Assembly (NCBI GenBank): GCA_017960905.1
Contig: JAGCYH010000002.1
Span: forward strand, 25,363-89,362
Origin: Bacteroidales bacterium
Lineage (GTDB): Bacteria; Bacteroidota; Bacteroidia; Bacteroidales; Marinilabiliaceae
Length of the DNA stretch: 64,000 bases
Direction of reading: 5' to 3'
Below, in pieces: positions 7,031 to 24,570 of the stretch. The translations under genes and the position numbers were made by a program. How positions within the stretch are numbered: the first letter of the stretch is position 1; each line of letters opens with the position of its first letter. Below the pieces are notes generated by a model that searched no databases, was not told the origin of the DNA, and saw nothing but the letters and a program-made list of their open reading frames with translations.

Positions 7031-7240
7031 ATGAAAACAACAGTAACCATAGATTTGGACACAAGAAATGCTGATGCTATGAGTTTTCTCAACTATATGA
7101 AAACCCTTAGTTTCGTCACTGTGCGCGAAAACGATGCAATCATTGAAGATATGAAGCGTTCGCGGGTTGAGGCAGAGAACCTTATGAACGACAAAAATGC
7201 CAAAGGATGTACAGCTGACGAGATAATAAGCATGATATGA
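7031..7240 (+). CDS. Antitoxin-like protein of a type II toxin-antitoxin pair
   Basis: The ATG at 7031 gives MKTTVTIDLDTRNADAMSF, a typical short antitoxin beginning (a beta strand that could form a ribbon-helix-helix or RelB-like head); the frame could start 15 bp earlier, but 7031 fits best. About 69 residues, charged, with a helical C-terminal half (EDMKRSRVEAENLM) suited to wrapping a toxin. The stop overlaps the toxin start by 4 bp (ATGA). Assigned mainly from size, order and the toxin next door; the exact family is not certain. Confidence 0.65.
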   Translation: MKTTVTIDLDTRNADAMSFLNYMKTLSFVTVRENDAIIEDMKRSRVEAENLMNDKNAKGCTADEIISMI

Positions 7241-7569
7241 TAGCGTTTGTCGCCACACCAACGTTTCTTAAGAACGCAAAGGTTCTTTCGAAGAGATATC
7301 CATCTTTTAAAAAAGACCTGAAGGAATTGCTTGATTCTTTGTCGGAGAATCCAGAGCAGGGCGTGTCATTGGCCGGAAAATTCAGAAAAATAAGGTTGGC
7401 AATATCATCTAAGGGCAAAGGAAAACGAGGCGGAGCAAGGGTAATTACAACAGATTGTGTGATTGTACAAGGGGCCGGCCGTATTGTGCTCGTGTCGGTT
7501 TATGACAAAAGTGATATAGATAGTATGTCGGTTGAAGAGATAAAAAAGGCCTATTCATCGTTGAGTTGA
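7237..7569 (+). CDS. RelE/ParE-superfamily toxin-like protein
   Basis: 110 residues. FVATPTFLKNAKVLSKRYPSF followed by a helix rich in Lys/Leu, then GKFRKIRLAISSKGKGKRGGARV and ITTDCVIV, VLVSVYDKSD match the strand-helix-strand layout and basic surface of RelE/ParE/HigB toxins, which act on ribosome-bound mRNA (RelE type) or on gyrase (ParE type). Which target applies cannot be told. Starts within the antitoxin stop codon (translational coupling). The cassette is bordered on both sides by the AGACGCACGG palindrome, suggesting insertion as a unit or between repeats. Confidence 0.75.
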   Translation: MIAFVATPTFLKNAKVLSKRYPSFKKDLKELLDSLSENPEQGVSLAGKFRKIRLAISSKGKGKRGGARVITTDCVIVQGAGRIVLVSVYDKSDIDSMSVEEIKKAYSSLS

Positions 7570-7706: not shown

Positions 7707-7739
7707 TTTGGTGATGGGAAAATGCCCTCATTATATTTG
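7707..7739 (+). promoter_or_regulatory. gltB operon promoter
   Basis: -33 TTTG (7707-7710), 21-nt spacer, -7 TATATTTG (7732-7739). Matches the Bacteroidota consensus; transcription would start near 7746, about 16 nt before the first leader ORF. Confidence 0.8.
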
Positions 7740-7761: not shown

Positions 7762-7890
7762 ATGACAGTTGGATTTACATACAACGTTTCAGTTCTGAAT
7801 AATAAACAGAATAATAATTGGAATCGAAATAATTATAAATCGGTTCTGAATAATCGTTGTTTGTATCTTCCAGCCGGATGCAGCAAATAA
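7762..7890 (+). CDS. Asn-rich leader peptide 1 of the gltB operon (attenuator unit 1)
   Basis: A 42-codon ORF starting MTVGFTYN, preceded by an A-rich Bacteroidota-type start context. Eleven codons are Asn, in clusters (NNKQNNNWNRNN), nearly all AAT. The mRNA can fold: ACAACG (7781-7786) pairs with CGTTGT (7855-7860) and GAATCG (7821-7826) with CGGTTC (7841-7846, one G-U), enclosing the Asn codons. Near the end, CCAGCC (7870-7875) is complementary to GGCTGG (7920-7925), the 5' arm of the following terminator, and would be covered by a ribosome at the stop codon. This is the layout of a leader-peptide attenuator. Expression of the peptide itself is inferred. Confidence 0.75.
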   Translation: MTVGFTYNVSVLNNKQNNNWNRNNYKSVLNNRCLYLPAGCSK

Positions 7891-7917
7891 TAAATGAAAT
7901 AGAAGATTTAAAAATAT

Positions 7918-7949
7918 AAGGCTGGTTCTTTTGAGAATCAGCCTTTTTT
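7918..7949 (+). terminator. Attenuator terminator 1 (gltB operon)
   Basis: GGCTGGTTC (7920-7928) pairs with GAATCAGCC (7935-7943) with one G-U pair, then six T. It sits between the two leader ORFs, so transcription must pass it to reach gltB. Its 5' arm can instead pair with CCAGCC at 7870-7875. Confidence 0.9.
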
Positions 7950-7972
7950 ATTGAACAAAAAAAGATAAGAAG

Positions 7973-8128
7973 ATGAAGAGTTTTGAATTGCCAGTCAGAA
8001 TGACTGTATCGGAGGGTGCGAATAGCAATTGTAATAATAATCTGAACCGAAATAATAATAATCCGGTTCAGATACGACGTTGCTTGCATCTACCAGTCGG
8101 ATGCGGCGAAAGAGAAACGGAGAGATAA
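7973..8128 (+). CDS. Asn-rich leader peptide 2 of the gltB operon (attenuator unit 2)
   Basis: A 51-codon ORF starting MKSFELPVRM with ten Asn codons (NSNCNNNLNRNNNN). The clustered codons lie in and around a perfect 8-bp hairpin, CTGAACCG (8042-8049) with CGGTTCAG (8064-8071), whose loop is AAT-rich. CCAGTC (8093-8098) can pair with GGCTGG (8141-8146) of the second terminator through one G-U. Its C-terminal part RCLHLPVGC matches RCLYLPAGC of leader 1, yet the same nucleotides in the glnK leader 3 are read in another frame, so the RNA rather than the peptide is conserved. Confidence 0.75.
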   Translation: MKSFELPVRMTVSEGANSNCNNNLNRNNNNPVQIRRCLHLPVGCGERETER

Positions 8129-8139
8129 AAAACACAAAA

Positions 8140-8167
8140 GGGCTGGCTTGGAAAACCAGCCCTTTTT
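8140..8167 (+). terminator. Attenuator terminator 2 (gltB operon)
   Basis: GGGCTGG (8140-8146) pairs with CCAGCCC (8156-8162), followed by five T. Lies 45 bp before the gltB start codon. Confidence 0.9.
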
Positions 8168-8212: not shown

Positions 8213-11200
8213 ATGGTAACATTGTATGACAAAGAGAACGAGCACGATGCCTGTGGCATCGGTTTGTTGGCGGACTTGAAGAGCAACAAGACGCATCAGT
8301 TGGTTGACAACGCCCTGACGGTGCTTGAGAACCTCAAGCACCGTGGCGCGGAGTCGGAGACATCAATGCTCAAAGGCGGGAAAGCATCGGGCGACGGTGC
8401 TGGCATTATGGTGCAGATACCGCACGAATTCATTCTGCTTCAGGGTATCCCGGTGCCCGAACGCGGAAAATACGGCACTGGCCTTGTCTTTCTGCCGAAA
8501 GACAAGAACCTGCACGACGCATATCTCGACTTGATACACCGCGAGGTAGAGTCGGCGGGTTTCACGCTGTCGCACGTCAGAACGGTGCCAGTCAACTCCG
8601 ACATTCTGGGTGAGGAGTCGGCGGCTTCGGAGCCCGACATAATTCAGATTTTCATCACCGGCGTGAAAGATGTGGCGCGCTTCGAGACCGACCTTTATCT
8701 GCTTCGCAAGCATATAGAGCAGAAGGTTCAGGACAAGGATTTCTACATCGTGTCGCTCTCGAGCCGTCTGATAATATACAAGGGAATGCTTACCTCGACA
8801 CAGCTGCGCGAGTATTACCCCGACCTGAGCAGTCCGTTCTTCACGAGCGGCATGGCGGTGGTTCACTCGCGTTTCAGCACCAACACGTTCCCGACGTGGT
8901 CGTTGGCGCAGCCGTTCCGTATGCTGGCGCACAACGGCGAGATAAACACCATACGCGGCAACCGCAACTGGATGGCGGCGCGCGAGAGCGTGCTCTCGTC
9001 GCCCGCGCTGGGTGATGTGAAGGGCATTCACCCTATCATTCAGCCCGATATGAGCGACAGCGCCTCGTTCGACAATGCGCTTGAGTTCTTCGTCCGTTCG
9101 GGCATGAGCCTGCCTCATGCCATCTCGATGATGGTGCCCGAGTCGTTCAACGACCGCAACCCTATAAGCGACGAGCTGAAGGCTTATTATGAGTATCATT
9201 CGATACTCATGGAGCCGTGGGACGGTCCGGCAGCGCTGCTCTTTTCCGACGGCCGCTATGCCGGCGGAATGCTCGACCGCAACGGTCTGCGCCCATGCCG
9301 TTACCTTGTTACCGAAGACGGTACGCTCATGGTGGCATCGGAGGCTGGCTGCCTGAAGGTCGACCCGCAGCTCATAAAGGAGAAAGGCAAGCTGCAGCCC
9401 GGCAAGATACTTCTGGTAGATACCGAAACCGGAACGATATACACCAACGACGAGATAAAACTTCAGCTTACAAAACAATGTGAGTACAGCAAGTGGCTGC
9501 ATACCAACAGAATAGAGCTTGCAAAACTGCACAGCGGCCGTAAGGTCGACAACGCAGTTGCCGACTATCAGCGCAAGTTGAGAGTGTTCGATTTCACTCG
9601 CGAAGATGTTGATAAAGTGATAGTTCCGATGTGTGTCAACGGACAGGAACCGCTTACGTCGATGGGCAACGACACGCAGCTGGCGGTCCTTTCGGACCGT
9701 CCGCAGCTGCTCTTCAGCTATTTCCGTCAGCAGTTTGCGCAGGTTACCAACCCACCTATCGACCCGATACGCGAGGAGTTGGTGATGTCGCTTACTGAAT
9801 ACATTGGCGCAGTGGGCATGAACATTCTCACTCCCAACGAGTCGCACTGCAAGATGGTGCGTCTGCCGCAGCCGGTGCTCACCAACACCGAGCTCGACAT
9901 GCTCTGCCACATACGCTACAAAGGTTTCAACACCGAAAAGCTGTCGATACTGTTTGAGAAAGACAAAGGCGAGGCCGGCATGGCGGCTCGCATCGATGAG
10001 TTGTGCCGCGAGGCCGAGAAGTCGGTCGATGAGGGCATCAACTACATAATACTGAGCGACCGCGACATGGACAGCGCCCATGCCGCTGTGCCGTCGTTGC
10101 TGGCTGTGAGCGCCATACACCATCATCTGATTTCGGTGCAGAAACGTGTGCAGACGGCATTGATAGTAGAAAGCGGCGAGATACGCGAAGTGATGCACGC
10201 CGCTCTGCTGCTCGGTTATGGCGCTAGCGCCATAAACCCGTATATGGCCTTCGCTGTCATCGACGACCTTGTGAAACGCGGCGAAGTGCAGCTCGACTAT
10301 GCTACCGCCGAGCACAACTACATAAAAGCTGTCGACAAAGGTCTGCTCAAGATTATGAGTAAGATGGGTATCAGCACGATACGTTCGTATCGTGGTGCGA
10401 AGATATTCGAGTCGATAGGTCTGGGCGAGGAGTTGCTCAAGAAGTACTTCGGCACGCCGTCGTCGACCATTGGCGGTGTGGGGCTTAAGAGCGTAGCCGA
10501 CGATGCCGTTCGTCGGCATTGTCAGGGTTACGCCGAGGAACCGGGTGATGTGCTGCCGTTCGTTGGTCAGTATTCGTACCGCAAAGACGGCATACGCCAC
10601 GCATGGACGCCCGATGCCATTGCAACGCTGCAATTGGCCACACGATTGGGCAGTTATAAGAAATTCAAGGAGTTCACGCACATCATCGACAGTGTCGAAG
10701 AGCCGTTGTTCCTGCGTCAGTACTTCAAGTTCAAGCAGAACCCGATACCTGTCGAAGAGGTTGAACCCGAAGAGCAGATAATGAAACGTTTCATTGGCGC
10801 GGCCATGTCGTTCGGTGCCATAAGCAAAGAGGCTCACGAAGCTATTGCGCTTGCGCTCAATAAGATAGGTAGCCGAAGCAACACTGGCGAAGGCGGTGAG
10901 GACGAGGCTCGTTTCAAGGCAGAGCAGGACGGTGTTTCGCTGTCGAGTGCAGTGAAACAGGTTGCATCGGGACGTTTTGGTGTAACGACCGAATACCTCG
11001 TCAACGCTCAGGAGATACAGATAAAAGTGGCGCAGGGCGCAAAGCCCGGTGAGGGTGGTCAGTTGCCTGGTTTTAAGGTAAATGAGATCATCGCCAAGAC
11101 GCGTCACTCTATACCGGGCATCTCGCTCATCTCGCCGCCACCTCACCACGATATTTACAGCATCGAGGACCTTGCGCAGCTCATTTTTGACCTGAAGAAT

Positions 11201-12691
11201 GTGAACCCGAGCGCGCAGATAAGCGTGAAGCTTGTTGCCGAGAGCGGTGTGGGCACCATTGCCGCCGGCGTAGCCAAGGCAAAAGCCGACATAGTAGTCA
11301 TCTCGGGTGCTGAAGGCGGCACGGGTGCATCGCCGGCATCGTCGGTGCGATATGCAGGCATATCGCCCGAGATAGGTCTGGCCGAAACACAGCAGACGCT
11401 GGTACTCAACGGTTTGCGCGATAAGATAGAGATTCAGACCGACGGCCAGTTGAAAACCGGCCGCGACATAGTAAGCATGGCGCTTCTGGGTGCCGGACAG
11501 TTCGGTTTCGGAACAATACAGCTGATAGTTTTGGGTTGCGTGCTGATGCGCAAATGCCATACCAACAGCTGTCCGGTAGGCGTGGCAACGCAAGACCCGC
11601 AACTGAGGGCTAAGTTCCTCGGACGCTCGGAGTACCTTGTCAACTACTACACCTTCCTCGCGCGCGAAGTGCGCGAGTACATGGCCGAGATGGGCTTCCG
11701 CAAATTCGACGACATGATAGGCCGCACCGATATGATAACTATCGATGAGTCGCGTTTTACAGATAAGACTAAAACGCTAGACTTCAGTCGTTTGCTGGCC
11801 AAAATCGACAACGGACATCCTATTCATGCAGTGTCGCATCCTATTCACAAGATATACGACGTACTCGACCGCGACATGATAATGTCGTCGGCCGATCAGA
11901 TAAAAGCCGGACAGAACGTCTCGCTCTCGTACGACATCATCAACACCAATCGCGCCGTAGGCGCGATGTTGTCGGGCGAGATAGCCAAGCAGTACGGCGG
12001 TCAGGGTTTGCCCGACGGCACTATCAACGTGCGATTCAAAGGTTCGGCAGGCCAGAGTTTTGGCGCCTTCCTCATGCGTGGTGTTTCGTTCACGCTCGAA
12101 GGCGAGACCAACGACTACATGGGCAAAGGCCTTTCGGGTGGCTGCATAAGTCTTTATCCGCCAAAACATTCGAAATTCAACGCCGAGGATAACATCATAG
12201 CCGGCAACACCTTGCTCTATGGTGCCACGAGCGGTGAGGTTTACATCAACGGACGTGTTGGTGAGCGTTTTGCAGTCAGAAACTCAGGTGCGACGGCCGT
12301 CGTCGAAGGCGCCGGCGACCACTGCTGCGAGTATATGACGGGCGGCCGCGTAGTTGTGTTGGGCAAGACAGGCCGCAACTTCGCCGCCGGTATGTCGGGC
12401 GGCTTGGCCTACGTGTGGGACAAAGACCACAACTTCGACTATTTCTGCAATATGGATATGATAGAATTGAGCCTTATTGAAGAAAAAAGCCGCCGCGAGG
12501 AACTTCACGAACTGATACGCCGCCATTACCTGCGCACAGGTTCGGAGCTTGCCAAACGCATGCTCGACGACTGGGCTCATTATGTAGATGAGTTTATTCA
12601 GGTAACTCCTATTGAGTACAAGAAAGTGCTTCACGAAGAGGCACTTAAGGGTCTTGAACAAAGAATTAACAAAGTTGAACGAGAGTATTAA
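8213..12691 (+). CDS. gltB: Glutamate synthase (GOGAT), large subunit
   Basis: 1492 residues, full length. Transfers the glutamine amide to 2-oxoglutarate, giving two glutamates; with glutamine synthetase this is the main high-affinity ammonium route. Start: an upstream ATG at 8202 hits a stop at once, so 8213 is used; this puts the catalytic N-terminal nucleophile at Cys14 (HDACGIG) after a short propeptide. Order: class II glutaminase (14 to ~430, with RGNRNWM), central domain, FMN/(alpha/beta)8 synthase domain, 3Fe-4S cysteines Cys1109, Cys1115 and Cys1120 (CVLMRKCHTNSC), and a C-terminal GXGXG beta-helix. First gene of a long operon, preceded by two attenuators. gltD follows 12 bp later. 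Confidence 0.97.
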   Translation: MVTLYDKENEHDACGIGLLADLKSNKTHQLVDNALTVLENLKHRGAESETSMLKGGKASGDGAGIMVQIPHEFILLQGIPVPERGKYGTGLVFLPKDKNLHDAYLDLIHREVESAGFTLSHVRTVPVNSDILGEESAASEPDIIQIFITGVKDVARFETDLYLLRKHIEQKVQDKDFYIVSLSSRLIIYKGMLTSTQLREYYPDLSSPFFTSGMAVVHSRFSTNTFPTWSLAQPFRMLAHNGEINTIRGNRNWMAARESVLSSPALGDVKGIHPIIQPDMSDSASFDNALEFFVRSGMSLPHAISMMVPESFNDRNPISDELKAYYEYHSILMEPWDGPAALLFSDGRYAGGMLDRNGLRPCRYLVTEDGTLMVASEAGCLKVDPQLIKEKGKLQPGKILLVDTETGTIYTNDEIKLQLTKQCEYSKWLHTNRIELAKLHSGRKVDNAVADYQRKLRVFDFTREDVDKVIVPMCVNGQEPLTSMGNDTQLAVLSDRPQLLFSYFRQQFAQVTNPPIDPIREELVMSLTEYIGAVGMNILTPNESHCKMVRLPQPVLTNTELDMLCHIRYKGFNTEKLSILFEKDKGEAGMAARIDELCREAEKSVDEGINYIILSDRDMDSAHAAVPSLLAVSAIHHHLISVQKRVQTALIVESGEIREVMHAALLLGYGASAINPYMAFAVIDDLVKRGEVQLDYATAEHNYIKAVDKGLLKIMSKMGISTIRSYRGAKIFESIGLGEELLKKYFGTPSSTIGGVGLKSVADDAVRRHCQGYAEEPGDVLPFVGQYSYRKDGIRHAWTPDAIATLQLATRLGSYKKFKEFTHIIDSVEEPLFLRQYFKFKQNPIPVEEVEPEEQIMKRFIGAAMSFGAISKEAHEAIALALNKIGSRSNTGEGGEDEARFKAEQDGVSLSSAVKQVASGRFGVTTEYLVNAQEIQIKVAQGAKPGEGGQLPGFKVNEIIAKTRHSIPGISLISPPPHHDIYSIEDLAQLIFDLKNVNPSAQISVKLVAESGVGTIAAGVAKAKADIVVISGAEGGTGASPASSVRYAGISPEIGLAETQQTLVLNGLRDKIEIQTDGQLKTGRDIVSMALLGAGQFGFGTIQLIVLGCVLMRKCHTNSCPVGVATQDPQLRAKFLGRSEYLVNYYTFLAREVREYMAEMGFRKFDDMIGRTDMITIDESRFTDKTKTLDFSRLLAKIDNGHPIHAVSHPIHKIYDVLDRDMIMSSADQIKAGQNVSLSYDIINTNRAVGAMLSGEIAKQYGGQGLPDGTINVRFKGSAGQSFGAFLMRGVSFTLEGETNDYMGKGLSGGCISLYPPKHSKFNAEDNIIAGNTLLYGATSGEVYINGRVGERFAVRNSGATAVVEGAGDHCCEYMTGGRVVVLGKTGRNFAAGMSGGLAYVWDKDHNFDYFCNMDMIELSLIEEKSRREELHELIRRHYLRTGSELAKRMLDDWAHYVDEFIQVTPIEYKKVLHEEALKGLEQRINKVEREY

Positions 12692-12703: not shown

Positions 12704-14050
12704 ATGGGAAATCCAAAAGCATTTTTAACTGTGCCGCGCAAGGAAGCCGGTCACAGACCAGTATGTGAGAGAATCAAAGACTTCGCTGAGGTGGAGCAGA
12801 CTCTCAACGAGAACGACCGCAGGATGCAGGCATCGCGGTGTATGGATTGCGGCGTGCCGTTCTGTCATTGGGCATGCCCGCTCGGAAACAAGCAGCCCGA
12901 ATGGCAAGACGCTGTGTACAAGGGCAAATGGGAGCTTGCTTACAAGCTGCTCGCCGCCACAAACGACTTCCCCGAGTTCACGGGCCGCATCTGTCCGGCG
13001 CTGTGCGAGAAGGGTTGCGTGCTCAACCATTGCATCGACGAACCGGTTACCGTGCGCGAAAACGAATGCTCTATCATCGAGATGGCGTTCCGCGAAGGCT
13101 ATGTGAAGCCGGCGCAGTATCAGCGCAACGGCAAGAAAGTGGCTGTTATAGGCGCCGGACCCGCCGGCATGTCGGCGGCCGTGTGCCTCAACCGCAAAGG
13201 CTATTCCGTTACTCTCATCGACAAGCACAACGCCGTGGGCGGCTTGCTGCGCTATGGCATTCCGAACTTCAAACTGAGCAAATACGTTATCAACCGCCGT
13301 GTTGAACTGATGCAGGCCGAAGGTATTGAAATAAAGATGAATACAGAGGTCGACTCGAAGAAGTTGCCCAAAGGCTACGACGCTTACGTCATTGCGACAG
13401 GCACGCCTGTCGCACGCGACCTCACAGTGCCGGGCCGCGAACTGAAAGGCGTCTATTTTGCCCTGCAAATACTCGGTCAGCAGAACCAAGTGCTTATGGG
13501 CGAGGATATTAGCGGTCAGGAACGCATTAGTGCCAAAGACAAGACGGTGCTTGTGATAGGCGGTGGCGATACTGGCAGCGACTGCATCGGCACATGTCAC
13601 CGACAAGGAGCCAAGAAAGTGATGCAGATAGAGATAATGCCGCAACCGCCTGTAGGTCAGAACCCTGCAACGCCGTGGCCGTGGTGGCCTGTGGTGCTCA
13701 AGACCACCACAAGCCACGAAGAGGGCTGCGAACGTCGCTGGTGCCTCACTACCAATAAGTTCGTTGGAGATAAGAATGGCAATCTGAAAGGTGCCGAAGT
13801 AGAGGAAGTTGAGTGGCTTCCGGCGCCCGATGGCGGCCGCCCTCAGATGAAACTGACAGGCAAAAAAGAGGTGATAAAATGCGACATGGTACTCTTGGCA
13901 ATGGGTTTCCTTCGCCCCGAGCATCCGCAATTTGCCGATAATGTGTTCGTTGCCGGTGATGCAAAGTCGGGAGCGAGCTTAGTGGTGAAGGCCATTGCAA
14001 GCGGTCGTCAGGTGGCCGACGAGGTGGACGCGAAGTTGAGTAAAAAGTAA
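12704..14050 (+). CDS. gltD: Glutamate synthase, small subunit
   Basis: 448 residues. Supplies electrons from NAD(P)H through FAD and Fe-S clusters to GltB. Visible: N-terminal 4Fe-4S cysteines Cys46, 49, 54, 58 (CMDCGVPFCHWACP) and 97, 101, 105, 110 (CPALCEKGCVLNHC), the FAD-binding GAGPAG motif (150-155) and the NAD(P)H-binding GGGDTG around residue 288. The 12-bp gap to gltB indicates co-translation and a stoichiometric complex in the cytosol. All expected motifs present. Confidence 0.96.
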   Translation: MGNPKAFLTVPRKEAGHRPVCERIKDFAEVEQTLNENDRRMQASRCMDCGVPFCHWACPLGNKQPEWQDAVYKGKWELAYKLLAATNDFPEFTGRICPALCEKGCVLNHCIDEPVTVRENECSIIEMAFREGYVKPAQYQRNGKKVAVIGAGPAGMSAAVCLNRKGYSVTLIDKHNAVGGLLRYGIPNFKLSKYVINRRVELMQAEGIEIKMNTEVDSKKLPKGYDAYVIATGTPVARDLTVPGRELKGVYFALQILGQQNQVLMGEDISGQERISAKDKTVLVIGGGDTGSDCIGTCHRQGAKKVMQIEIMPQPPVGQNPATPWPWWPVVLKTTTSHEEGCERRWCLTTNKFVGDKNGNLKGAEVEEVEWLPAPDGGRPQMKLTGKKEVIKCDMVLLAMGFLRPEHPQFADNVFVAGDAKSGASLVVKAIASGRQVADEVDAKLSKK

Positions 14051-14093: not shown

Positions 14094-15272
14094 ATGAAGA
14101 TAAATAGTAATTTCCAGCGGTTGTCGCAGCGGTATTTGTTTGCCGAGATAGCGCAGCGTGTAGCGGCTTACAAGGCACAGAACCCCAATGCGCCAATAAT
14201 AAGGCTTGGCATTGGCGACGTTACACGCCCGCTGCCGCAGGCGTCGATAGAGGCCATGCACCGCGCTGTCGATGAGTGCGCCGACGGAAAGACTTTCCGC
14301 GGCTACGGCCCTGAGCATGGCTACGACTTCCTTATTGATGCCATCATTGCGCACGACTTCAGTCCGCGCGGTGTTGCGCTCACACGCAAAGAGGTCTTCA
14401 TTAGCGATGGCGCCAAGAGCGACACCGGCAACATAGGCGACTTGTTCGCCGTCGATAATATCGTCGGCGTTACCGACCCTGTGTATCCGGTCTATGTAGA
14501 TACCAACCTGATGACGGGGCGCCAGATACGGTTTATACCTTGCAACGCCTTTAACGGCTTCACTGGCGACATACCCACAGAGCACTTCGACATAGTGTAC
14601 CTCTGCTACCCAAACAACCCGACGGGTGCGGTCATTACGAAGGAAAAACTCAGTCAGTGGATCGATTATGCGCGTCGCAACGACGCCATAATCCTATACG
14701 ACTCGGCCTATGAGGCTTTTATACAAGACGATACGCTGCCGCACTCGATATACGAGATAGAAGGTGCCAAAGAGTGCGCCATAGAATTCCGAAGTTTCTC
14801 AAAGACAGCAGGTTTCACTGGTGTGCGATGCGGATATACGGTGGTGCCCGAGGAGTTGAAAGTCGATGGCGTGTCGCTCAATGCGTTGTGGGAGCGTCGT
14901 CAGTGCTGCAAGTTCAATGGCGCCTCGTACATCTCACAGCGTGGCGCTGAGGCTGTGTTTTCGCCCGAAGGGCAAAAACAAATTCGCGACACCATCGACT
15001 ATTACATGGACAATGCGCGCCTCATTCGTAGCCGGCTTGCCGGCTACGGTCTGACGGTGTACGGCGGCGAACACTCGCCATACATCTGGGTGTCGACACC
15101 GAAGGGCGAAGACTCGTGGTCGTTTTTCACCCGACTGCTCACTCAGGCCAATGTCGTTGTGACGCCGGGCGAAGGCTTTGGTGTGAACGGCGAGGGCTTT
15201 GTGCGCATCACTGCTTTTGGCACAAAAGAAGACAGTTTGGTGGCCGCCGAACGTATTGGAAGGATTTTGTAA
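14094..15272 (+). CDS. dapL: LL-diaminopimelate aminotransferase
   Basis: 392 residues, class I/II PLP aminotransferase of the DapL type: makes LL-diaminopimelate directly from tetrahydrodipicolinate using glutamate as amino donor, for lysine and peptidoglycan. The N-terminus FAEIAQRVAAYKAQNP, the RLGIGDVTRPLP segment and the PLP lysine Lys237 (SFSKTAGFTGVRCG) are family-typical. Its place behind gltBD makes sense because it consumes glutamate, and dapF, the next enzyme of the same pathway, closes the gene string. 43 bp after gltD. Confidence 0.92.
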   Translation: MKINSNFQRLSQRYLFAEIAQRVAAYKAQNPNAPIIRLGIGDVTRPLPQASIEAMHRAVDECADGKTFRGYGPEHGYDFLIDAIIAHDFSPRGVALTRKEVFISDGAKSDTGNIGDLFAVDNIVGVTDPVYPVYVDTNLMTGRQIRFIPCNAFNGFTGDIPTEHFDIVYLCYPNNPTGAVITKEKLSQWIDYARRNDAIILYDSAYEAFIQDDTLPHSIYEIEGAKECAIEFRSFSKTAGFTGVRCGYTVVPEELKVDGVSLNALWERRQCCKFNGASYISQRGAEAVFSPEGQKQIRDTIDYYMDNARLIRSRLAGYGLTVYGGEHSPYIWVSTPKGEDSWSFFTRLLTQANVVVTPGEGFGVNGEGFVRITAFGTKEDSLVAAERIGRIL

Positions 15273-15301
15273 AAAAAATAATATTCAAACAATTAAGTAT
15301 T

Positions 15302-17143
15302 ATGTCAGAACCTTTGAAACATGAGTGTGGCGTGGCGATGATAAGGCTGTTGAAGCCTCTCGACTACTACAGGCATAAGTACGGCTCCGACATGTACGGC
15401 CTCAACAAGCTCTATCTGCTGATGGAGAAACAGCACAACCGTGGCCAGGAAGGCGCGGGCATAGCGTGCGTGAATTTCGACGCGCAGCCGGGCGAGGAGT
15501 ATATGTTTCGCGAGCGTGCCTTGGGCAGCGGGGCCATACAAGAGCTTTTTCAGAAAGTGCAGGAGTCGCATTTGCCGTTTCTGGGCGAGATTTACATGGG
15601 TCATCTGCGCTATTCGACAACGGGAAAACATGGCTTGGCCTACGTACATCCGTTCATGCGGCGCAGCAACTGGCGCGCGCGCAACTTGTGCCTGTGCGGC
15701 AATTTCAACCTGACGAATGTCGATGAGGTGTTTGGCGAGATAACCGCCATGGGGCAGCACCCGCGCATCTTCAACGACACCTACATCATGCTTGAGCTCA
15801 TGGGGCACCGCCTCGATCGCGAGAGCGAGCGAGTGTACGAGCTGTCGCGGCAGCACAACCTGCAAGGCACCGAGATAACCTCATTCATCGAAGATAACAT
15901 CGACATTACCAACGTGTTGCGCACTTCGACGCCGTCGTTCGACGGCGGCTATGTCTTGTGCGGCTTCACGGGCAGCGGCGAGATGTTCTCTATGCGCGAC
16001 CCGTGGGGTATTCGCCCCGCGTTCTGGTATGCCGACGACGAGATTCTGGTGCTGGCGTCAGAGCGCCCGGTGATTCAGACGACGTTCGGTCTGGAGACCG
16101 AACTCATCAACGAACTGCAGCCAGGTCAGGCACTTACAGTTCGCCGCAACGGCGAACTGAAGCTCTCGCAGATAATTGAGCCAAAGGAGAAGCACGCCTG
16201 CTCGTTCGAGCGCATTTACTTCAGCCGAGGTTCCGACTATGATATTTACAAAGAGCGAAAAGCACTAGGCGAGCAGCTCACGCCCAAAATCAATGAGGCC
16301 ATCGGTGGCGACCTCGAGAATACTGTGTTTAGCTATGTGCCTAATACTGCGGAAGTTGCATTCTATGGCATGTTGGACGGATTCAAGAAAATCCTCAACG
16401 AGCAGAAGGTCGAACAATTGTTCGACCTCACTCAGGACCATCTGCCCACGAAGGCCGAGATACGCGACATACTGCACAACTACGTGCGCAGCGAGAAGGT
16501 GGCCATCAAGGATATCAAGTTGCGCACCTTCATCACCGAAGGCACCATGCGCAACGACCTTGCCGCTCACGTGTACGACATCACTTACGGCTCGCTGAAG
16601 CCCGGTGTCGACAACCTTGTCATCATCGACGACTCTATAGTGCGCGGCACAACGCTCAAAGAGAGCATCATACGCATTCTCGACCGATTGCATCCGAAGA
16701 AAATGGTCATCGTAAGTTCTTGTCCGCAAGTGCGTTATCCCGACTACTACGGCATAGATATGTCGAGCATGGGCGAGCTCATAGCTTTCCGTGCAGCCAT
16801 AGAGCTGCACGTAGAGCGCGGCAGTTGGCAGACGGTGTGCGACATTTATTATAAATGTCTGGCACAGAAGGATTTGCCAGTCGATCAGATGCACAATTAC
16901 GTTAAAGATATATATGCACCCTTCAGTGCCGATGAGATTTCGGACAAAATGCTCGAGATGCTTCGGCCCGAAGGCATCGACACGCCTATCCAGCTGGTTT
17001 TCCAGTCGTTGGAAGGGCTTCGCACAGCTTGCCCTAACCATACGGGCGACTGGTATTTCAGTGGCGATTACCCCACACATGGTGGGGTAAAATTAGTTAA
17101 CTTAGCTTTTATCAATTATTATGAGTCATCTATCAGAAACTAA
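15302..17143 (+). CDS. purF: Amidophosphoribosyltransferase-like glutamine amidotransferase
   Basis: Start taken at 15302, because it places the class II glutaminase nucleophile near the N-terminus (Cys9, HECGVAM); the longer upstream frame overlaps dapL and adds nothing. 613 residues, about 100 longer than classical PurF. Glutaminase domain to ~250 (HLRYSTTGKHG), then a phosphoribosyltransferase domain with the PRPP loop VIIDDSIVRGTT at ~440-451. Likely reaction: PRPP + glutamine to 5-phosphoribosylamine, first step of purine synthesis. The extra length leaves room for a divergent role, so the symbol is tentative. Ends 23 bp inside pyrG. Confidence 0.82.
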   Translation: MSEPLKHECGVAMIRLLKPLDYYRHKYGSDMYGLNKLYLLMEKQHNRGQEGAGIACVNFDAQPGEEYMFRERALGSGAIQELFQKVQESHLPFLGEIYMGHLRYSTTGKHGLAYVHPFMRRSNWRARNLCLCGNFNLTNVDEVFGEITAMGQHPRIFNDTYIMLELMGHRLDRESERVYELSRQHNLQGTEITSFIEDNIDITNVLRTSTPSFDGGYVLCGFTGSGEMFSMRDPWGIRPAFWYADDEILVLASERPVIQTTFGLETELINELQPGQALTVRRNGELKLSQIIEPKEKHACSFERIYFSRGSDYDIYKERKALGEQLTPKINEAIGGDLENTVFSYVPNTAEVAFYGMLDGFKKILNEQKVEQLFDLTQDHLPTKAEIRDILHNYVRSEKVAIKDIKLRTFITEGTMRNDLAAHVYDITYGSLKPGVDNLVIIDDSIVRGTTLKESIIRILDRLHPKKMVIVSSCPQVRYPDYYGIDMSSMGELIAFRAAIELHVERGSWQTVCDIYYKCLAQKDLPVDQMHNYVKDIYAPFSADEISDKMLEMLRPEGIDTPIQLVFQSLEGLRTACPNHTGDWYFSGDYPTHGGVKLVNLAFINYYESSIRN

Positions 17144-18734
17144 ATACATTTTCGTTACCGGCGGTGTTGTTTCGTCGCTTGGCAAGGGAATTATTTCGGC
17201 CAGCATAGGGCAGTTGCTTCAGGCGCGCGGCTACAAAATCACTATCCAGAAGTTCGACCCCTACATCAACATCGACCCGGGCACTCTCAACCCCTACGAG
17301 CACGGCGAGTGCTACGTAACCGTCGATGGTATGGAAACTGACCTCGATTTGGGTCATTATGAGCGTTTTACAGGTATAAAAACCACCTGCAACAACTCTA
17401 TCACCACAGGCCGAATCTATCAGGCCGTAATCGACCAGGAGCGCCACGGCGACTATCTGGGACGCACCATTCAGGTTGTCCCGCACATCACCGACGAGAT
17501 AAAGCGCCGCATTCGTGCCAATGCCGAGAGCGAGCATTTCGACTTTGTCATTTCGGAGATTGGCGGCACGATAGGCGACATCGAGAGTGCGCCATTCATG
17601 GAGGCCATACGCCAGTTGCGATGGGAGCTTGGGCGCAACGCTATCAACATACACCTCACCTACGTGCCTTACCTGAGGGCGGCTGGCGAGTTTAAGACAA
17701 AACCTACGCAACACTCTGTAAAAGAGCTGCAAAGCATGGGTATTCAGCCCGACATACTTATTCTGCGCACCGAGTATCATCTCGAGCAGGGCATACTCAA
17801 CAAGGTGGCTTCGTTCTGCAACGTTGAGCCGGCGTGTGTGGTGCAAAGCGAGGATTTGCCGAGCATCTACGAAGTGCCTGTGAATATGCAGCGACAGGGA
17901 CTCGACAGCTCAATACTGACCAAGTTCGGCGTTGTGGCAGGCAGCGAGCATCAGGCCGACATGCAGTCGTGGAATCATTTTCTGCAATTGCAGAAAATGG
18001 CCACCGAAGAGGTGCGCATAGGTCTGGTGGGCAAATACGACCTGCAGGACGCTTACAAAAGCATACGCGAGAGCTTGCATCTGGCGGCCATTTACAATGG
18101 CCGCAAAGCAAAACTGCAATTTATTAACAGTGAGCTTATTACGCCCGAAAATGTAGCCGAGAAACTGGCCGGACTGGCTGGCATTGTCGTTTGCCCGGGT
18201 TTCGGTCAGCGCGGAATTGAAGGAAAGATAACAGCCATAAATTACACTCGTACGCATAATATTCCTACCTTTGGCATCTGTTTGGGTATGCAGATGATGG
18301 TAATCGAATTTGCACGTTATGTGCTTGGATATCAGGATGCTGACAGCATGGAGATGAATCCGTCGACAGCTCACAGCGTCATAGATATCATGGAGGAGCA
18401 GAAGCAGATTACCGACAAGGGCGGCACAATGCGCCTTGGAGCTTACGACTGCGAGCTTCTCGAGGACAGCCGTGTGCGCGCCATTTATGGCAGCGCACAC
18501 ATCAGCGAACGCCATCGCCACCGATACGAGTTTAACAACAAGTATCTGGCTGAATATGAGCAAAATGGCATGAAATGCGTCGGACACAACCCACGGTCGG
18601 GATTGGTTGAAATAGTCGAGATACCAGAGCATCGCTGGTTTATCGGCACTCAGTTCCACCCCGAATATGTCAGTACAGTATTGAATCCGCATCCGTTGTT
18701 TGTTGATTTTATAAAAAACGCAATGGAGGGATAA
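17121..18734 (+). CDS. pyrG: CTP synthase
   Basis: 537 residues, standard length. Converts UTP to CTP using ATP and glutamine. N-terminal synthetase domain with GGVVSSLGKGI (14-24) and KFDPYINIDPGTLNP; C-terminal class I glutaminase with nucleophile Cys387 (FGICLGMQ) and His/Glu in TQFHPEY (~513-515). The start codon lies inside the end of the purF-like gene (23-bp overlap), supporting a single transcript and translational coupling. One of several glutamine-consuming enzymes in this operon. Confidence 0.97.
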   Translation: MSHLSETKYIFVTGGVVSSLGKGIISASIGQLLQARGYKITIQKFDPYINIDPGTLNPYEHGECYVTVDGMETDLDLGHYERFTGIKTTCNNSITTGRIYQAVIDQERHGDYLGRTIQVVPHITDEIKRRIRANAESEHFDFVISEIGGTIGDIESAPFMEAIRQLRWELGRNAINIHLTYVPYLRAAGEFKTKPTQHSVKELQSMGIQPDILILRTEYHLEQGILNKVASFCNVEPACVVQSEDLPSIYEVPVNMQRQGLDSSILTKFGVVAGSEHQADMQSWNHFLQLQKMATEEVRIGLVGKYDLQDAYKSIRESLHLAAIYNGRKAKLQFINSELITPENVAEKLAGLAGIVVCPGFGQRGIEGKITAINYTRTHNIPTFGICLGMQMMVIEFARYVLGYQDADSMEMNPSTAHSVIDIMEEQKQITDKGGTMRLGAYDCELLEDSRVRAIYGSAHISERHRHRYEFNNKYLAEYEQNGMKCVGHNPRSGLVEIVEIPEHRWFIGTQFHPEYVSTVLNPHPLFVDFIKNAMEG

Positions 18735-18756: not shown

Positions 18757-19857
18757 ATGAAAACTGCGATTGAAAACGAAAAGCCGAAAAAGACACTTCT
18801 AAAGCTCGAGGACGGCTCTGTGTTCGAGGGCACATCGTTCGGCTACGAGAAATCCGTAGCCGGCGAATTGTGTTTCTACACCGCCATGACGGGCTACCCC
18901 GAAAGTCTTACCGACCCCTCGTACCGTGGCCAGATTCTCGTGCCCACATATCCGATGATTGGCAACTACGGCGTGCCGTCCGACGAATACGACGCCAACG
19001 GCGTCTCGCGTTTTTTCGAATCCGACAAGATACAATGTCAGGCTCTGATTATTCAGAATTATTCGGAGCAATACAGCCACTGGGATTCCGACCGTAGCCT
19101 GTCGGCGTGGCTCAAGCAGCACAAGGTGCCGGCTTTGTGCGACATCGACACACGCGCGCTCACTCAGAAGCTGCGCGACAAAGGCGCCATGCTCGGCAAG
19201 ATTATCTTCGACGATGCCGATGTGGAAATGTCGGACCCGAACAAGCGCAATCTGGTTGCCGAAGTGTCGGCAACCGAAGTCAGAACCTACGGCAACGGCA
19301 GCAAAAAAGTGCTCATGATCGACTGCGGAATGAAAAACAACATTCTCCGCTGCCTGCTCCGCTTCGACGTGCAGGTGAAGCGCGTGCCTTGGGACTACGA
19401 CTTCCGCGGCGAAGAGTACGACGGCCTTTTCGTGTCGAACGGTCCGGGCGACCCAGCGCAGTGCAAAGCCACTATCGAACATCTGTCTTGGGCCATTGCC
19501 CAAGACAAACCTATAATGGGCATTTGCCTTGGCAATCAGCTACTTGCACTTGCCGCTGGCGCTAAAACGTACAAACTCAAATACGGCCATCGCGGGCACA
19601 ACGTGCCCGTGAAGGAGGTTGGTACACATCATTGCCTCATCACATCGCAGAACCACGGCTTTGCCATCGACGACGCTACGCTGCCTGCCGATTGGCGGCC
19701 GCTCTACGTCAATCTCAACGACGGCACCAACGAAGGCATACAACACGCCACTAAGCCGTTTTTCTCTACGCAGTTCCACCCCGAAGCCTCGAGCGGACCG
19801 GTAGATTCTATGGAACTCTTCCAGCGTTTTGTTAATTATATGAATGTAAAAGCCTAA
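18757..19857 (+). CDS. carA: Carbamoyl-phosphate synthase, small (glutaminase) subunit
   Basis: 366 residues. Releases ammonia from glutamine and channels it to CarB for carbamoyl phosphate (arginine and pyrimidines). N-terminal CarA domain (LKLEDGSVFEGTSFG), then class I glutaminase with Cys257 (GICLGNQLLALAAG) and STQFHPEASSGP. It lies 22 bp after pyrG and 16 bp before carB. Confidence 0.97.
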   Translation: MKTAIENEKPKKTLLKLEDGSVFEGTSFGYEKSVAGELCFYTAMTGYPESLTDPSYRGQILVPTYPMIGNYGVPSDEYDANGVSRFFESDKIQCQALIIQNYSEQYSHWDSDRSLSAWLKQHKVPALCDIDTRALTQKLRDKGAMLGKIIFDDADVEMSDPNKRNLVAEVSATEVRTYGNGSKKVLMIDCGMKNNILRCLLRFDVQVKRVPWDYDFRGEEYDGLFVSNGPGDPAQCKATIEHLSWAIAQDKPIMGICLGNQLLALAAGAKTYKLKYGHRGHNVPVKEVGTHHCLITSQNHGFAIDDATLPADWRPLYVNLNDGTNEGIQHATKPFFSTQFHPEASSGPVDSMELFQRFVNYMNVKA

Positions 19858-19873
19858 TAATGAATTGAATACT

Positions 19874-22800
19874 ATGAGCGACGAAATAAAAAAAATATTG
19901 GTGTTGGGCAGCGGTGCCCTCAAAATTGGTGAATCGGGCGAGTTCGACTATTCGGGCTCGCAAGCGCTTAAGGCATTGCACGAAGAGGGCAAATTCACCA
20001 TTCTGGTCAACCCCAACATTGCCACAGTGCAGACTTCGGAAGGCGTTGCCGACCGTATCTACTATCTGCCTATCACGCCCGAATTTGTCGAGCGTGTCAT
20101 TCAGAAGGAAAAACCCGACGCCATAATGCTGTCGTTTGGTGGCCAAACTGCGCTCAACTGCGGCGTAAAACTCTATGAGAGTGGCGTTTTCGAACGTTAC
20201 GGAGTCAAAGTCATCGGTACGCCCGTCGATGCCATCATCAACACCGAAGACCGCGAGCTCTTTGCCGATATGATGCGAAGCATCAATGTGAAGACGGCTC
20301 ACAGCGTGGCTGTGAGCTCTATCGACGAGGCTATGGAGGTTGTACGCACCATCGGCTATCCGGTCATAGTGCGCGCTGCCTACACGCTCGGCGGCTTGGG
20401 CTCTGGCTTTTGCAACAACGACGACGAGCTTCGCAAACTCGCCGAACAGGCTTTCACATTCTCGCCGCAAATTCTTATCGAAGAATCGCTCAAAGGCTGG
20501 AAAGAAATTGAATATGAGGTAGTTCGCGACCAATACGACAACTGCATCACCGTCTGCAACATGGAGAACTTCGACCCGCTCGGCATTCACACCGGCGAGA
20601 GTGTCGTTGTGGCGCCTTCGCAGACGCTCAGCGACCACGAATATCACAAACTGCGCGAGATTGCCATTAAAATCGTGCGCCGCGTGGGCATCATAGGCGA
20701 GTGTAACGTTCAGTACGCCCTTGCGCCCGACAGCGAGGATTATCGCGTCATTGAGGTCAATGCGCGCCTGAGCCGCTCGTCGGCTCTGGCATCGAAAGCC
20801 ACCGGATATCCGCTGGCTTTCGTGGCCGCAAAATTAGGTCTCGGCTATGGCCTCGACGAAATCAAAAACTCTGTAACGCAGTGTACTTCAGCGTTTTTCG
20901 AGCCAGCTCTCGATTATGTTGTCTGCAAAATTCCGCGTTGGGATTTGGGCAAATTCGACGGCGTGTCGAAACTCATTGGCTCGTCGATGAAGTCGGTGGG
21001 CGAGGTGATGGCCATCGGCCGCACCTTCGAAGAGGCCATTCAGAAAGGCCTGCGCATGGTAGGGCAGGGCTTGCATGGTTTTGTGGCCAATACCGTTAAT
21101 ATCCCCGATGTCGACTACGAGCTGCGCAACCCGACCGACAAACGTCTGCCGGCTATCGCAATAGCTTTCGATATGGGCTATACCGTTGACCAACTGCACG
21201 ATATAACAAAAATCGACCGCTGGTTCCTCTACCGGTTGCACAATATTTACCGCATGAAATGCGAGCTTGAAGCTATTGCCGAGGCTCGTACGCCGCTCGC
21301 CGATTGCCGAGAGGCAATCGACAAGGCGAAACGTCTCGGTTTCTCCGACTATCAGATAGGCAAATTCATTATCAAAGACGCTTCGGTGTCGCCTCACGAC
21401 AAAGGCCTTCAGATACGCCAGCTGCGCAAGCAGTGGGGCATTGTGCCCGTTGTGAAGCAGATTGATACTACTGCAGGCGAATATCCTGCCCGCACCAACT
21501 ATATGTATCTCACCTACAACGGCAGTAAAAACGACCTTAGCATTGCTTCGCAAGAGCTCAGCAAGCACGAGTCGGTCATTGTGCTCGGCTCGGGCGCTTA
21601 CCGCATAGGCTCGTCGGTCGAATTCGACTGGTGCGGCGTCGCCGCTCTGAAGAAGATTCAGGAGATGGGCCTCAAAGCCATCATGATAAACTACAACCCC
21701 GAAACCGTCAGCACCGACTACGACGTGTGCGACCAGCTCTTCTTCGACGAGCTCACGCTTGAGCGTGTGCTCGACATCTGCGACATAGAGCAGCCCAAGG
21801 GCGTGATAGTGTCGACGGGCGGACAGATTCCGAACAACCTTGCCTTGCTGCTTGCCGACCAAGGTGTCAGAATTCTCGGCACTTCGGCCGAGTCGATTGA
21901 TATTGCCGAGGACCGTCAGAAATTCTCGCAAATGTGCGACCGCCTCGGCATCGACCAGCCACGATGGAAAGAGCTTACCAAGATGGACGAAATCTACGAT
22001 TTCGTCGATGAGGTCGGACTGCCTGTTATGATACGCCCGTCGTACGTCCTCTCGGGCGCTGCCATGCGCGTTGTCAGCAACAAGGAAGAGCTTGCCGACG
22101 CTTTGCAGAATGCTGCCGTAGTGAGCCAGGAGCATCCGGTTGTCGTTACCGAATTCCTGCAGCGCGCCAAAGAGGTTGAGATTGACGCCGTGGCGCAAAA
22201 CGGCGAGATAAAGTGCTACGCCATAAGCGAGCACATCGAGTACGCCGGCGTGCACTCGGGCGACGCTACAGTTGTCTTTCCGGCGCAAAAACTTTATTAT
22301 GAGACTATTAGACGCATCAAGCGCACGGCAAAGCAGATTGCTAAAGAACTCAATATCAGCGGCCCGTTCAACATTCAGTTTTTGGCCAAAGACAATAAAT
22401 TGCGAGTTATAGAATGCAACTTGCGTGCAAGCCGCAGCTTCCCGTTTGTGTCGAAAATAACGAAGTTCAACTTCATCGGCATGGCTACCGAAATTATGCT
22501 TGGCAAAGAGGTTGAGCCGTTCGGCAAAAACTTTGCCGACATAGACTATGTCGGCATCAAGTCGTCGCAGTTCTCGTTTGCCCGCTTGCTCAAGGCCGAC
22601 CCGATTCTCGGTGTCGACATGGCCTCTACAGGCGAGGTGGCCTGCATTGGCGACAACTACTACGAGGCGCTGCTCAAGAGTATGCTCTCGGTGGGTTTCC
22701 ACATTCCCGACAAGCAGAAAGGCATTCTCATGTCGTCGGGTGAGGCACGCTCGAAAGTTGAGCTGCTCGAGGCTGCCCGCCTCTTGCACGACGACGGATA

Positions 22801-23116
22801 CACCATCTACGCCACTTCGGGTACGTCCAAGTTCCTCGCCCAGTCGGGCATCGAAACCGAAGAGGTCCATTGGCCCGATTCTGCCGAAAAACCCAACGTG
22901 CTCGACATCATACGCGACCACAAAATCGACTTGGTTGTCAACATACCGAAAAACCACACCGAACGAGAGTTGCAAAACGGTTATCTCATTCGCCGTGCCG
23001 CTGTCGACCACAATATCCCGCTCATCACCAACGCCCGCTTGGCGTCGGCTTTCATCCGAGCCTTCTCGGAGTACGGCTCCGACAAACTGGAGATAAAACA
23101 CTGGGCGGAGTATTAG
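19874..23116 (+). CDS. carB: Carbamoyl-phosphate synthase, large subunit
   Basis: 1080 residues. I start at the ATG at 19874 (MSDEIKKILVLGSG) rather than the in-frame TTG nine bases earlier. Two duplicated ATP-grasp halves are visible, each starting with a VLGSGA-RIG or -KIG type motif (residues ~10 and ~570), and a C-terminal allosteric MGS-like domain (~940-1080, TSGTSKFLAQSG). Makes carbamoyl phosphate from bicarbonate, ATP and ammonia supplied by CarA. Last gene before a repeat-containing break in the operon. Confidence 0.97.
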   Translation: MSDEIKKILVLGSGALKIGESGEFDYSGSQALKALHEEGKFTILVNPNIATVQTSEGVADRIYYLPITPEFVERVIQKEKPDAIMLSFGGQTALNCGVKLYESGVFERYGVKVIGTPVDAIINTEDRELFADMMRSINVKTAHSVAVSSIDEAMEVVRTIGYPVIVRAAYTLGGLGSGFCNNDDELRKLAEQAFTFSPQILIEESLKGWKEIEYEVVRDQYDNCITVCNMENFDPLGIHTGESVVVAPSQTLSDHEYHKLREIAIKIVRRVGIIGECNVQYALAPDSEDYRVIEVNARLSRSSALASKATGYPLAFVAAKLGLGYGLDEIKNSVTQCTSAFFEPALDYVVCKIPRWDLGKFDGVSKLIGSSMKSVGEVMAIGRTFEEAIQKGLRMVGQGLHGFVANTVNIPDVDYELRNPTDKRLPAIAIAFDMGYTVDQLHDITKIDRWFLYRLHNIYRMKCELEAIAEARTPLADCREAIDKAKRLGFSDYQIGKFIIKDASVSPHDKGLQIRQLRKQWGIVPVVKQIDTTAGEYPARTNYMYLTYNGSKNDLSIASQELSKHESVIVLGSGAYRIGSSVEFDWCGVAALKKIQEMGLKAIMINYNPETVSTDYDVCDQLFFDELTLERVLDICDIEQPKGVIVSTGGQIPNNLALLLADQGVRILGTSAESIDIAEDRQKFSQMCDRLGIDQPRWKELTKMDEIYDFVDEVGLPVMIRPSYVLSGAAMRVVSNKEELADALQNAAVVSQEHPVVVTEFLQRAKEVEIDAVAQNGEIKCYAISEHIEYAGVHSGDATVVFPAQKLYYETIRRIKRTAKQIAKELNISGPFNIQFLAKDNKLRVIECNLRASRSFPFVSKITKFNFIGMATEIMLGKEVEPFGKNFADIDYVGIKSSQFSFARLLKADPILGVDMASTGEVACIGDNYYEALLKSMLSVGFHIPDKQKGILMSSGEARSKVELLEAARLLHDDGYTIYATSGTSKFLAQSGIETEEVHWPDSAEKPNVLDIIRDHKIDLVVNIPKNHTERELQNGYLIRRAAVDHNIPLITNARLASAFIRAFSEYGSDKLEIKHWAEY

Positions 23117-24543: not shown

Positions 24544-24570
24544 GGGACAATAAACAATAGATAGACGAAA

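Follow-up and report, generated by a model that had tools for sequence, protein, structure and literature searches.

The window analyzed here is a 64,000-nucleotide (nt) stretch of contig JAGCYH010000002.1 (positions 25,363 to 89,362, forward strand) in the assembly GCA_017960905.1 of a Bacteroidales bacterium of the Marinilabiliaceae, and all positions below are counted within it. It holds four copies of one leader unit, two in series in front of the glutamate synthase (GOGAT) gene gltB and two in front of the P-II gene glnK (Table 1). Each unit consists of a short open reading frame (ORF) rich in Asn codons, two hairpins, P1 over the last of these Asn codons and P2 with CCAGYC in its loop, and a predicted intrinsic terminator whose 5′ arm is complementary to that loop. 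On comparative sequence evidence we think it likely that each unit is a ribosome-controlled transcription attenuator which reads the charging of Asn- and Gln-tRNA and uses the P2 loop as its antiterminator.

Table 1. Leader units of the window and the genes that accompany them; positions are those of the window.
Feature	Position	Strand	Details
Predicted promoter, gltB leader	7707-7739	+	TTTG 7707-7710, TATATTTG 7732-7739
Unit 1, whole	7762-7949	+	
Unit 1 leader ORF	7762-7890	+	42 residues; 11 Asn and 1 Gln codons
Unit 1 P1 hairpin	7818-7849	+	spans the Asn codons; from folding and P1 covariation
Unit 1 P2 hairpin	7862-7882	+	CCAGCC 7870-7875 within the loop
Unit 1 predicted intrinsic terminator	7918-7949	+	GGCTGG 7920-7925, complementary to the P2 loop
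Unit 2, whole	7973-8167	+	
Unit 2 leader ORF	7973-8128	+	51 residues; 10 Asn and 1 Gln codons; without own TAnnTTTG
Unit 2 P1 hairpin	8040-8073	+	from folding
Unit 2 P2 hairpin	8085-8105	+	CCAGTC 8093-8098 within the loop
Unit 2 predicted intrinsic terminator	8136-8167	+	GGCTGG 8141-8146
gltB	8213-12691	+	glutamate synthase large subunit
gltD	12704-14050		downstream of gltB
LL-diaminopimelate (LL-DAP) aminotransferase gene	14094-15272		gltB operon
pyrG	17121-18734		gltB operon
carA	18757-19857		gltB operon
carB	19865-23116		gltB operon
Predicted promoter, glnK leader	24141-24172	+	TTTG 24141-24144, TATTTTTG 24165-24172
Unit 3	24197-24375	+	leader ORF 24197-24313, 38 residues; 12 Asn and 4 Gln codons
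Unit 3 P1	24250-24278	+	
Unit 3 P2	24292-24312	+	CCAGTC 24300-24305
Unit 3 predicted terminator	24345-24375	+	GGCTGG 24347-24352
Unit 4	24403-24598	+	leader ORF 24403-24543, 46 residues; 11 Asn and 5 Gln codons; without own TAnnTTTG
Unit 4 P1	24473-24497	+	
Unit 4 P2	24510-24530	+	CCAGCC 24518-24523
Unit 4 predicted terminator	24568-24598	+	GGCTGG 24571-24576
Genes after units 3 and 4	24634-31054	+	
glnK (P-II)	24634-24981	+	
amtB	25028-26281	+	
ORF of 238 amino acids (aa) between amtB and asnB	26321-27037	+	no Pfam match
asnB	27066-28802	+	
Type III glutamine synthetase (GSIII) gene	28868-31054	+	

A previous examination of this DNA from its letters alone (the sequence-only reading) had described two Asn-rich leaders in front of gltB, a hairpin around each Asn cluster, a terminator after each leader and a CCAGYC segment complementary to the GGCTGG arm of its own terminator, and had hinted at four units in all. 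These descriptions were borne out: the leader coordinates and Asn counts (11 of 42 and 10 of 51) are correct, P1 folds over the Asn cluster in both gltB units, terminator hairpins are predicted at 7918-7949 and 8136-8167 from folding and relatives, CCAGCC at 7870 and CCAGTC at 8093 face GGCTGG at 7920 and 8141, respectively, and two more units lie before glnK (24197-24598). A scan of both strands of the window for ORFs of 10-90 aa with at least 5 Asn and at least 13% Asn passed seven ORFs, namely the four leaders (20-32% Asn) and three others (15-16%). Folding z-scores of the four units against dinucleotide shuffles range from -4.1 to -5.8, and in the plain minimum fold of unit 1 part of CCAGCC is paired inside P2. 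Both terminators of the gltB leader rest on folding and on relatives because a pattern scan gave no excess of terminator-like sites over shuffles (9 versus 11.2 between 5000 and 15000); that scan picked up the terminator of unit 1 on the + strand (7918-7945 and its T-run) and placed the hairpin of unit 2 (8136-8166) on the - strand, yet the latter folds on the + strand and is followed there by T5. CCAGYC alone is not rare, with 61 matches in the window versus 41 expected, and one copy within the second leader, at 7991, plays no part in the unit. What goes beyond chance is that, in the relatives, CCAGYC sits in the loop of a predicted hairpin and is complementary there to the terminator.

Relatives of the unit were searched for with two covariance models, R1 from P1 and P2 of seven units and R2 from 25 units. 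Both contain P1 and P2 alone, so that pairing with the terminator lies outside the search criteria. This search, which the sequence-only reading had suggested, gave 94 units in 47 genomes (89 R2 matches in 45 genomes, to which the window genome adds four and genome G461 one), after removal of 11 antisense matches overlapping true ones and of one duplicate. Asn codons and CCAGYC/GGCTGG complementarity, whose possible loss in relatives had also been raised, are kept in nearly all of them. The nearest recognized gene is glnK for 45 units, asnB for 20, glmS for 12, gltB for seven and pyrG for five, with GSIII, purF and a circularly permuted ATP-grasp gene standing once each and none in reach of two units at contig ends (L316, L359). 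A gene of nitrogen or glutamine metabolism thus lies downstream in 91 of the 92 units with a nameable gene, and all classes but the ATP-grasp gene make, take up, spend or, as P-II does, govern amide nitrogen. The tally uses eight N-terminal motifs within 2.6 kilobases (kb), chosen after inspection of the listings, so it would skip a gene of any other kind that comes before the recognized one, and in some units a small ORF or a 242-aa ORF is indeed the first to follow. Representatives were confirmed by hidden Markov models, purF by its amidotransferase and phosphoribosyltransferase domains.

The 83 distinct leaders carry on average 9 Asn and 5.9 Gln residues (median Asn plus Gln fraction 0.39), with codon totals of 611 AAT, 455 CAG, 136 AAC and 36 CAA, and Gln outnumbers Asn in 11 of them, several glnK leaders included. 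The Asn signal proposed earlier therefore holds in that the leaders are Asn-rich, but not as Asn alone, since Gln codons belong to the signal. The Asn/Gln run is in frame with the ATG in 90 of the 94 units. Over P2 the reading frame of the peptide changes from group to group while the RNA element stays the same, so that selection there would act on the RNA and, further upstream, on the amide codons; a conserved leader peptide was rejected on the same ground. A TAnnTTTG box, which belongs to the promoter consensus of Bacteroidota and on which the predicted promoter of the gltB leader is based, precedes 84 of 90 units, as against 3% of 105-nt pieces taken at random from the window. In the window it is present for units 1 and 3, and none was found for units 2 and 4 in the stretch searched, which suggests that these two are probably in series with units 1 and 3 on one transcript.

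Both hairpins appear to be maintained. Across seven units P1 and P2 are paired in 100% of cells, four pairs show double changes and the number of double-change cells is 7 versus 2.7 in shuffled alignments; across 25 units it is 22 versus 7.8, and none of 500 shuffles reaches 22, although in this larger alignment some groups are out of register at P2 and only 79% of the P2 cells pair. Over 64 distinct regions the P2 stem score is 12.2 versus 8.4 in shuffles (largest of 300, 9.4). Stem sequence, stem length and loop boundaries of P2 vary much, whereas the loop core is almost invariant.

A predicted intrinsic terminator stands between leader ORF and genes in all 91 scored units of the 94, the others being L316 and L359 at contig ends and L378, whose core lies outside the range of the script and which fits the pattern by eye. 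In all 91 the P2 loop is complementary to the 5′ arm of this terminator over at least 6 contiguous base pairs (bp), with 6 bp in 11 units, 7 in 40, 8 in 36 and 9 in 4; for the CCAGCCGG units, where the loop register depends on which CC core is taken, the counts use the corrected register. The loop:arm helices differ between groups (ACCAGTC:GGCTGGT, CCAGCC:GGCTGG, ACCAGTCC:GGACTGGT, GACCAG:CTGGTC, GACCGGTC:GGCTGGTC and, in the purF unit, TTGGCCGG:CCGGTCAA), and when arms are swapped among the 19 distinct loop/arm types, pairing of equal or better energy arises in 94 of 20000 swaps and of equal or better length in 230 of 20000. Changes on both sides of the pairing were found between C-G and U-A in gltB units and between A-U and G-C in the purF unit (L344). 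At its core the 5′ arm reads CTGG in all of the 91 units but one, which has CCGG and a loop that matches it. Among 53 units with 39 distinct terminators the CTGG is invariant and its 3′ partners vary (A/G 30:9, T/C 28:11), so that CTGG stays fixed while its own partner drifts by wobble. This asymmetry is a sharper sign than the arm swap, and it looks as though a further partner constrained the 5′ arm. The gltB units L130, L131, L275 and L276 have an A.C mismatch in the terminator at a place where the loop pairing keeps U-A.

In the mechanism that we propose, RNA polymerase would start at the TAnnTTTG promoter and a ribosome would start on the leader. With charged Asn- and Gln-tRNA the ribosome would reach the stop codon, on or just past P2, and block the CCAG loop, upon which the terminator would fold and transcription end. 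Under shortage of Asn or Gln the ribosome would stall on the Asn/Gln run within and before P1, short of P2, and the free loop could then pair over 6-9 bp with the emerging 5′ arm, pre-empting the terminator and letting the genes be read. This pairing would be an H-type pseudoknot if the P2 stem persists and a plain antiterminator hairpin if it is opened. Measured from the start of the loop core, the end of the stop codon falls between -5 and +21 nt in 82 of 90 units, at -27 in one and at +26 to +38 in seven (L130, L276 and L347 are omitted, with no ORF in the range of the script; wider listings give one). A ribosome usually covers about 15 nt on either side of its P site, and with this footprint the core would in most units lie under a ribosome that has reached the stop codon and beyond the reach of one stalled at the last Asn/Gln codons. 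The sequence-only reading had CCAGYC as a free segment that is masked upon completion of the peptide, and two units in series as an AND gate or a means to sharpen the response. Its complementarity to the terminator arm stands, but the segment is the loop of a conserved hairpin, for which reason the antiterminator may be a pseudoknot; masking agrees with the stop geometry, with the amendment that it would be easiest by a ribosome at the stop codon. As for the series, read-through probabilities of the two units in the window genome would multiply, with lower leak and a steeper response to one signal, so the sharpening is retained and the AND gate of two signals is not, because both units would read the same signal.

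Several observations weigh against this mechanism. Four leaders depart from the pattern, that of L346 being frameshifted after the run, that of L350 having the run out of frame, and those of L359 and L360 lacking one. The arm swap is weak for the first 53 units (16 types), with 238 of 5000 swaps equal or better by energy and 596 of 5000 by length, and covariation of the loop/arm pairing is limited because the loop core is nearly invariant. At -7.4 to -13.9 kcal/mol this pairing falls short of the terminators, for which 13 representatives give -12.4 to -24.5 kcal/mol, so the antiterminator must win by timing, and the predicted nested fold omits it in 37 of 91 units, units 1-3 of the window included. 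The P2 stem is short in some units; 5 bp are reached by 69% of the observed stems versus 36% in shuffles, and two of the 64 distinct regions have fewer than 4 contiguous pairs. Units 2 and 4 are among the seven with the stop codon at +26 to +38, where the ribosome may miss the core, and the role of P1 is left unexplained by the proposed mechanism.

The direction of control, too, is inferred, because the published expression data on ammonium for Prevotella ruminicola 23 are contradictory. In that organism glnK-amtB-x-asnB and gltBD/GSIII shift tens of fold with nitrogen supply, with amtB changing 69-fold, glnK 46-fold and asnB 38-fold between ammonium levels and amtB being 47-fold higher on ammonium than on peptides; section 7 of the paper gives limiting ammonium as the inducing condition, and its abstract, legend and discussion differ (PMC5552732). 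If it is non-limiting ammonium that induces these genes, plain nitrogen-starvation logic fails there. Repression by peptides, a source of ready-made amino acids, is what an amide-sensing attenuator would give, should that species carry the unit. The portions of PMC5552732 drawn upon here name no mechanism for this regulation.

Among the alternatives, leader-peptide attenuation with a plain hairpin antiterminator, in which P2 is opened and no pseudoknot forms, is a serious candidate, if one we are inclined to disbelieve. The loop/arm pairing is part of the predicted nested minimum in 54 of 91 units when the Asn region is masked and the sequence cut before the 3′ arm (6 of the 13 representatives; of the four window units only unit 4), and in 33 of the 64 distinct regions the P2 stem has only 4-5 contiguous bp. 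Against this, compensatory changes preserve the stem around the core, and such upkeep would serve no purpose, or would even do harm, if opening were needed, and the P2 stem or other pairs win the nested fold in the 37 remaining units, which a pseudoknot could reconcile. We regard as improbable that P2 is a site for a protein or small RNA, through which a nitrogen regulator acting in trans would control the terminator while the leader ORF is incidental or merely brings the ribosome: an almost invariant loop core on a changing stem is indeed what a binding site would show, but against it stand the complementarity between loop and terminator 5′ arm in each of the 91 units, the one-sided invariance of that arm in 53 units, and the Asn/Gln run, in frame in all but four of 94 units, with its shifting Asn and Gln make-up, of which a binding site would have no need.

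Glutamine riboswitches are represented by the glnA and Downstream-peptide RNAs, which, as is predicted for the units here, exert RNA control on glutamine and glutamate synthase genes, with the difference that a coding ORF is central here. A riboswitch for glutamine or asparagine formed by P1 and P2, controlling the terminator without translation, would account for the covariation of both hairpins and for the preponderance of glutamine metabolism among the genes; it seems very improbable, as no Rfam family matched at gathering score in the window and nine related loci (neither the glutamine riboswitches nor the T-box, so no described member of either is present at that threshold), P2 is highly variable, for a ligand pocket, in stem sequence, length and loop boundaries, and the coding frame would need another explanation. 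That the short ORFs are functional small proteins or small regulatory RNAs and their terminators the ends of independent genes is hardly credible either, for although 84 of 90 units come with a promoter-like box of their own, besides an ORF and a terminator, the peptide C-termini run in different frames by group over the same RNA and the units stand upstream of a narrow gene set in 91 of 92 named cases.

The attenuators of the proteobacterial trp, his, leu and thr operons combine an ORF of regulatory codons with alternative RNA pairing and an intrinsic terminator. Codon-run ORF, alternative pairing and terminator before cognate genes, the latter two as predictions for the units, are common to both; the units differ in their Asn/Gln codons, in the use of one element before at least seven different genes, in belonging to Bacteroidota, and in having a hairpin loop as competing strand in place of a nested arm. 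At the level of sequence the evidence supports the view that the units are ribosome-mediated attenuation, an established kind, in a new form (Asn/Gln codons, nitrogen genes of Bacteroidota). The actinobacterial attenuators and LEU element, as defined in the portion of PMC1262725 compared, likewise have a leader peptide and a predicted conserved pseudoknot, and the trp attenuators among them have three mutually complementary segments, like CCAG-CTGG-CCRG here; no intrinsic terminator is described in that portion, whereas in the units the competing partner is a terminator arm and the codons are Asn/Gln. Two attenuators per leader are also found in Salmonella mgtCBR, where one is codon-based (mgtP, proline), and in the tandem metE riboswitches of B. 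clausii, but these tandems read two different signals and mgtCBR is without recognizable intrinsic terminators, unlike the units, which would read the same amino acids twice and each have their own predicted terminator (PMC3641672, passage on tandem attenuators). The uORFC-8-2 cysS attenuator of Rhodobacterales is another comparatively found codon-based attenuator with conserved RNA structure, there with Cys codons, one gene and an alphaproteobacterial host, and the gltD candidate motif of the same source is likened to the units by its target genes, the motif itself being outside the comparison (PMC8632094, in part). In a literature search, supplementary tables aside, no paper surfaced that deals with attenuation by Asn or Gln codons in front of nitrogen genes of Bacteroidota. 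Excerpts of two papers mention leader-peptide clues before amino-acid operons in Flavobacterium psychrophilum (PMC9723704) and short ORFs reminiscent of leader peptides in B. thetaiotaomicron (PMC7366714); the main text of PMC2965389 has no word starting with "Bacteroid".

The control of nitrogen assimilation in Bacteroidota is poorly explained, and the units, which precede genes of the kinds that shift in P. ruminicola 23, offer a testable mechanism in which no dedicated protein regulator is needed. With them, codon-based attenuation would come to include both nitrogen-carrying amides and a many-gene regulon sharing one RNA element, and the pseudoknot antiterminator and the serial arrangement, if confirmed, are unusual design features. 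The widest statement, to which we give just short of an even chance, is that a clade of Bacteroidales gauges amide nitrogen by Asn- and Gln-tRNA charging across a regulon of GOGAT, P-II/AmtB, asnB, GSIII and the enzymes GlmS, PyrG and PurF, which spend glutamine, by means of a portable attenuator with an H-type pseudoknot antiterminator that moves with its operons from family to family and can be placed in tandem for a steeper switch.

R1 and R2 reach close relatives only, and absence elsewhere is absence for these models under strict filters. The unit was found in three of 80 named loci with a related gltB (L021, L022 and L039; L029 has only 154 nt upstream), two of the three coming from sheep reticulum and water-buffalo rumen according to the record titles. 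R1 gave a second copy in each of these three genomes and one in the genome of L023, which has none before its gltB, and all four copies (L134 included) precede P-II glnK directly or across one ORF. Within a 399-genome sample of the relatives' family R1 matches 29 and R2 45, and in the genus of G458 the unit occurs in 6 of 17 genomes. In the window's own family it is carried by one of 71 genomes, the source genome itself, and the samples of the order added no new genome (1 of 393 with R1, the source genome; 1 of 393 with R2, G458). By these searches the unit is a feature of part of one family. Two units in series occur in no other genome, as judged from match coordinates, by which a weak second unit could be missed. 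A strict DNA pattern of P2 plus terminator, which matched one of the 71 own-family genomes, again the source, was too strict and was replaced by the covariance model; relaxing the pattern produced scattered hits in 10 of 15 genomes of the genus, and those outside the source genome were taken for chance because neither model confirmed any. The 119 stretches from a scan of viral contigs with a 14-mer were also taken for chance and went unused. When up to 3 mismatches were allowed, the P2 pattern matched the source genome at 138 forward and 125 reverse sites (55 and 55 for the reversed-pattern control), and among the matches listed, 0-1 mismatch occurs only in the four units.

The GltB of the window is 88-90% identical to those of genomes G458-G461 versus 57-78% to those of 14 genus-mates. 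A gene 17 kb past the second operon (47754-49436) has its best relatives, at 45-54%, in five of six genus-mates searched and only fragments in G458-G461. With GltB closer to G458-G461 and this gene closer to its own genus, the nitrogen cluster (8213-31054) with its attenuators was, judging from these identities, probably acquired from another family; a chimeric assembly could be the alternative, and a mis-binned contig was set aside on account of the own-genus relatives of 47754-49436 (one gene, with six of the 14 genus-mates searched).

Some minor observations concern the units and their surroundings. The two units without an Asn/Gln run, at L360:2058-2132 (-) and L359:251-325, retain P1 and P2 (L360 also the terminator), and that of L360 precedes the circularly permuted ATP-grasp gene (PF14403); such units may have changed codons so as to respond to a different signal, or may be copies in decay. 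In units 3 and 4 the P1 5′ arm GAACCAG is, by eye, complementary to CTGGTTC of their own terminators; as a general pairing this was dropped, not being kept in gltB or glmS units, and so was pairing between the 3′ arms of P1 and of the terminator, which fails in unit 2 (both by eye). The 242-aa ORF lies between attenuator and glnK in several relatives, and two that were scanned have no Pfam match; in P. ruminicola the place between amtB and asnB is taken by PRU_1977, a protein of unknown function (PMC5552732). Inside the gltB operon a long ORF (15116-17143) with weak glutamine amidotransferase matches is either a diverged member or has a wrong start. Just upstream of the gltB leader a small ORF is followed by a RelE-like ORF (7032-7569), possibly a toxin-antitoxin pair, the RelE-like match being weak (E 6e-4, under the Pfam cut-off), and a Fic-family ORF lies at 59608-60774 on the - strand.
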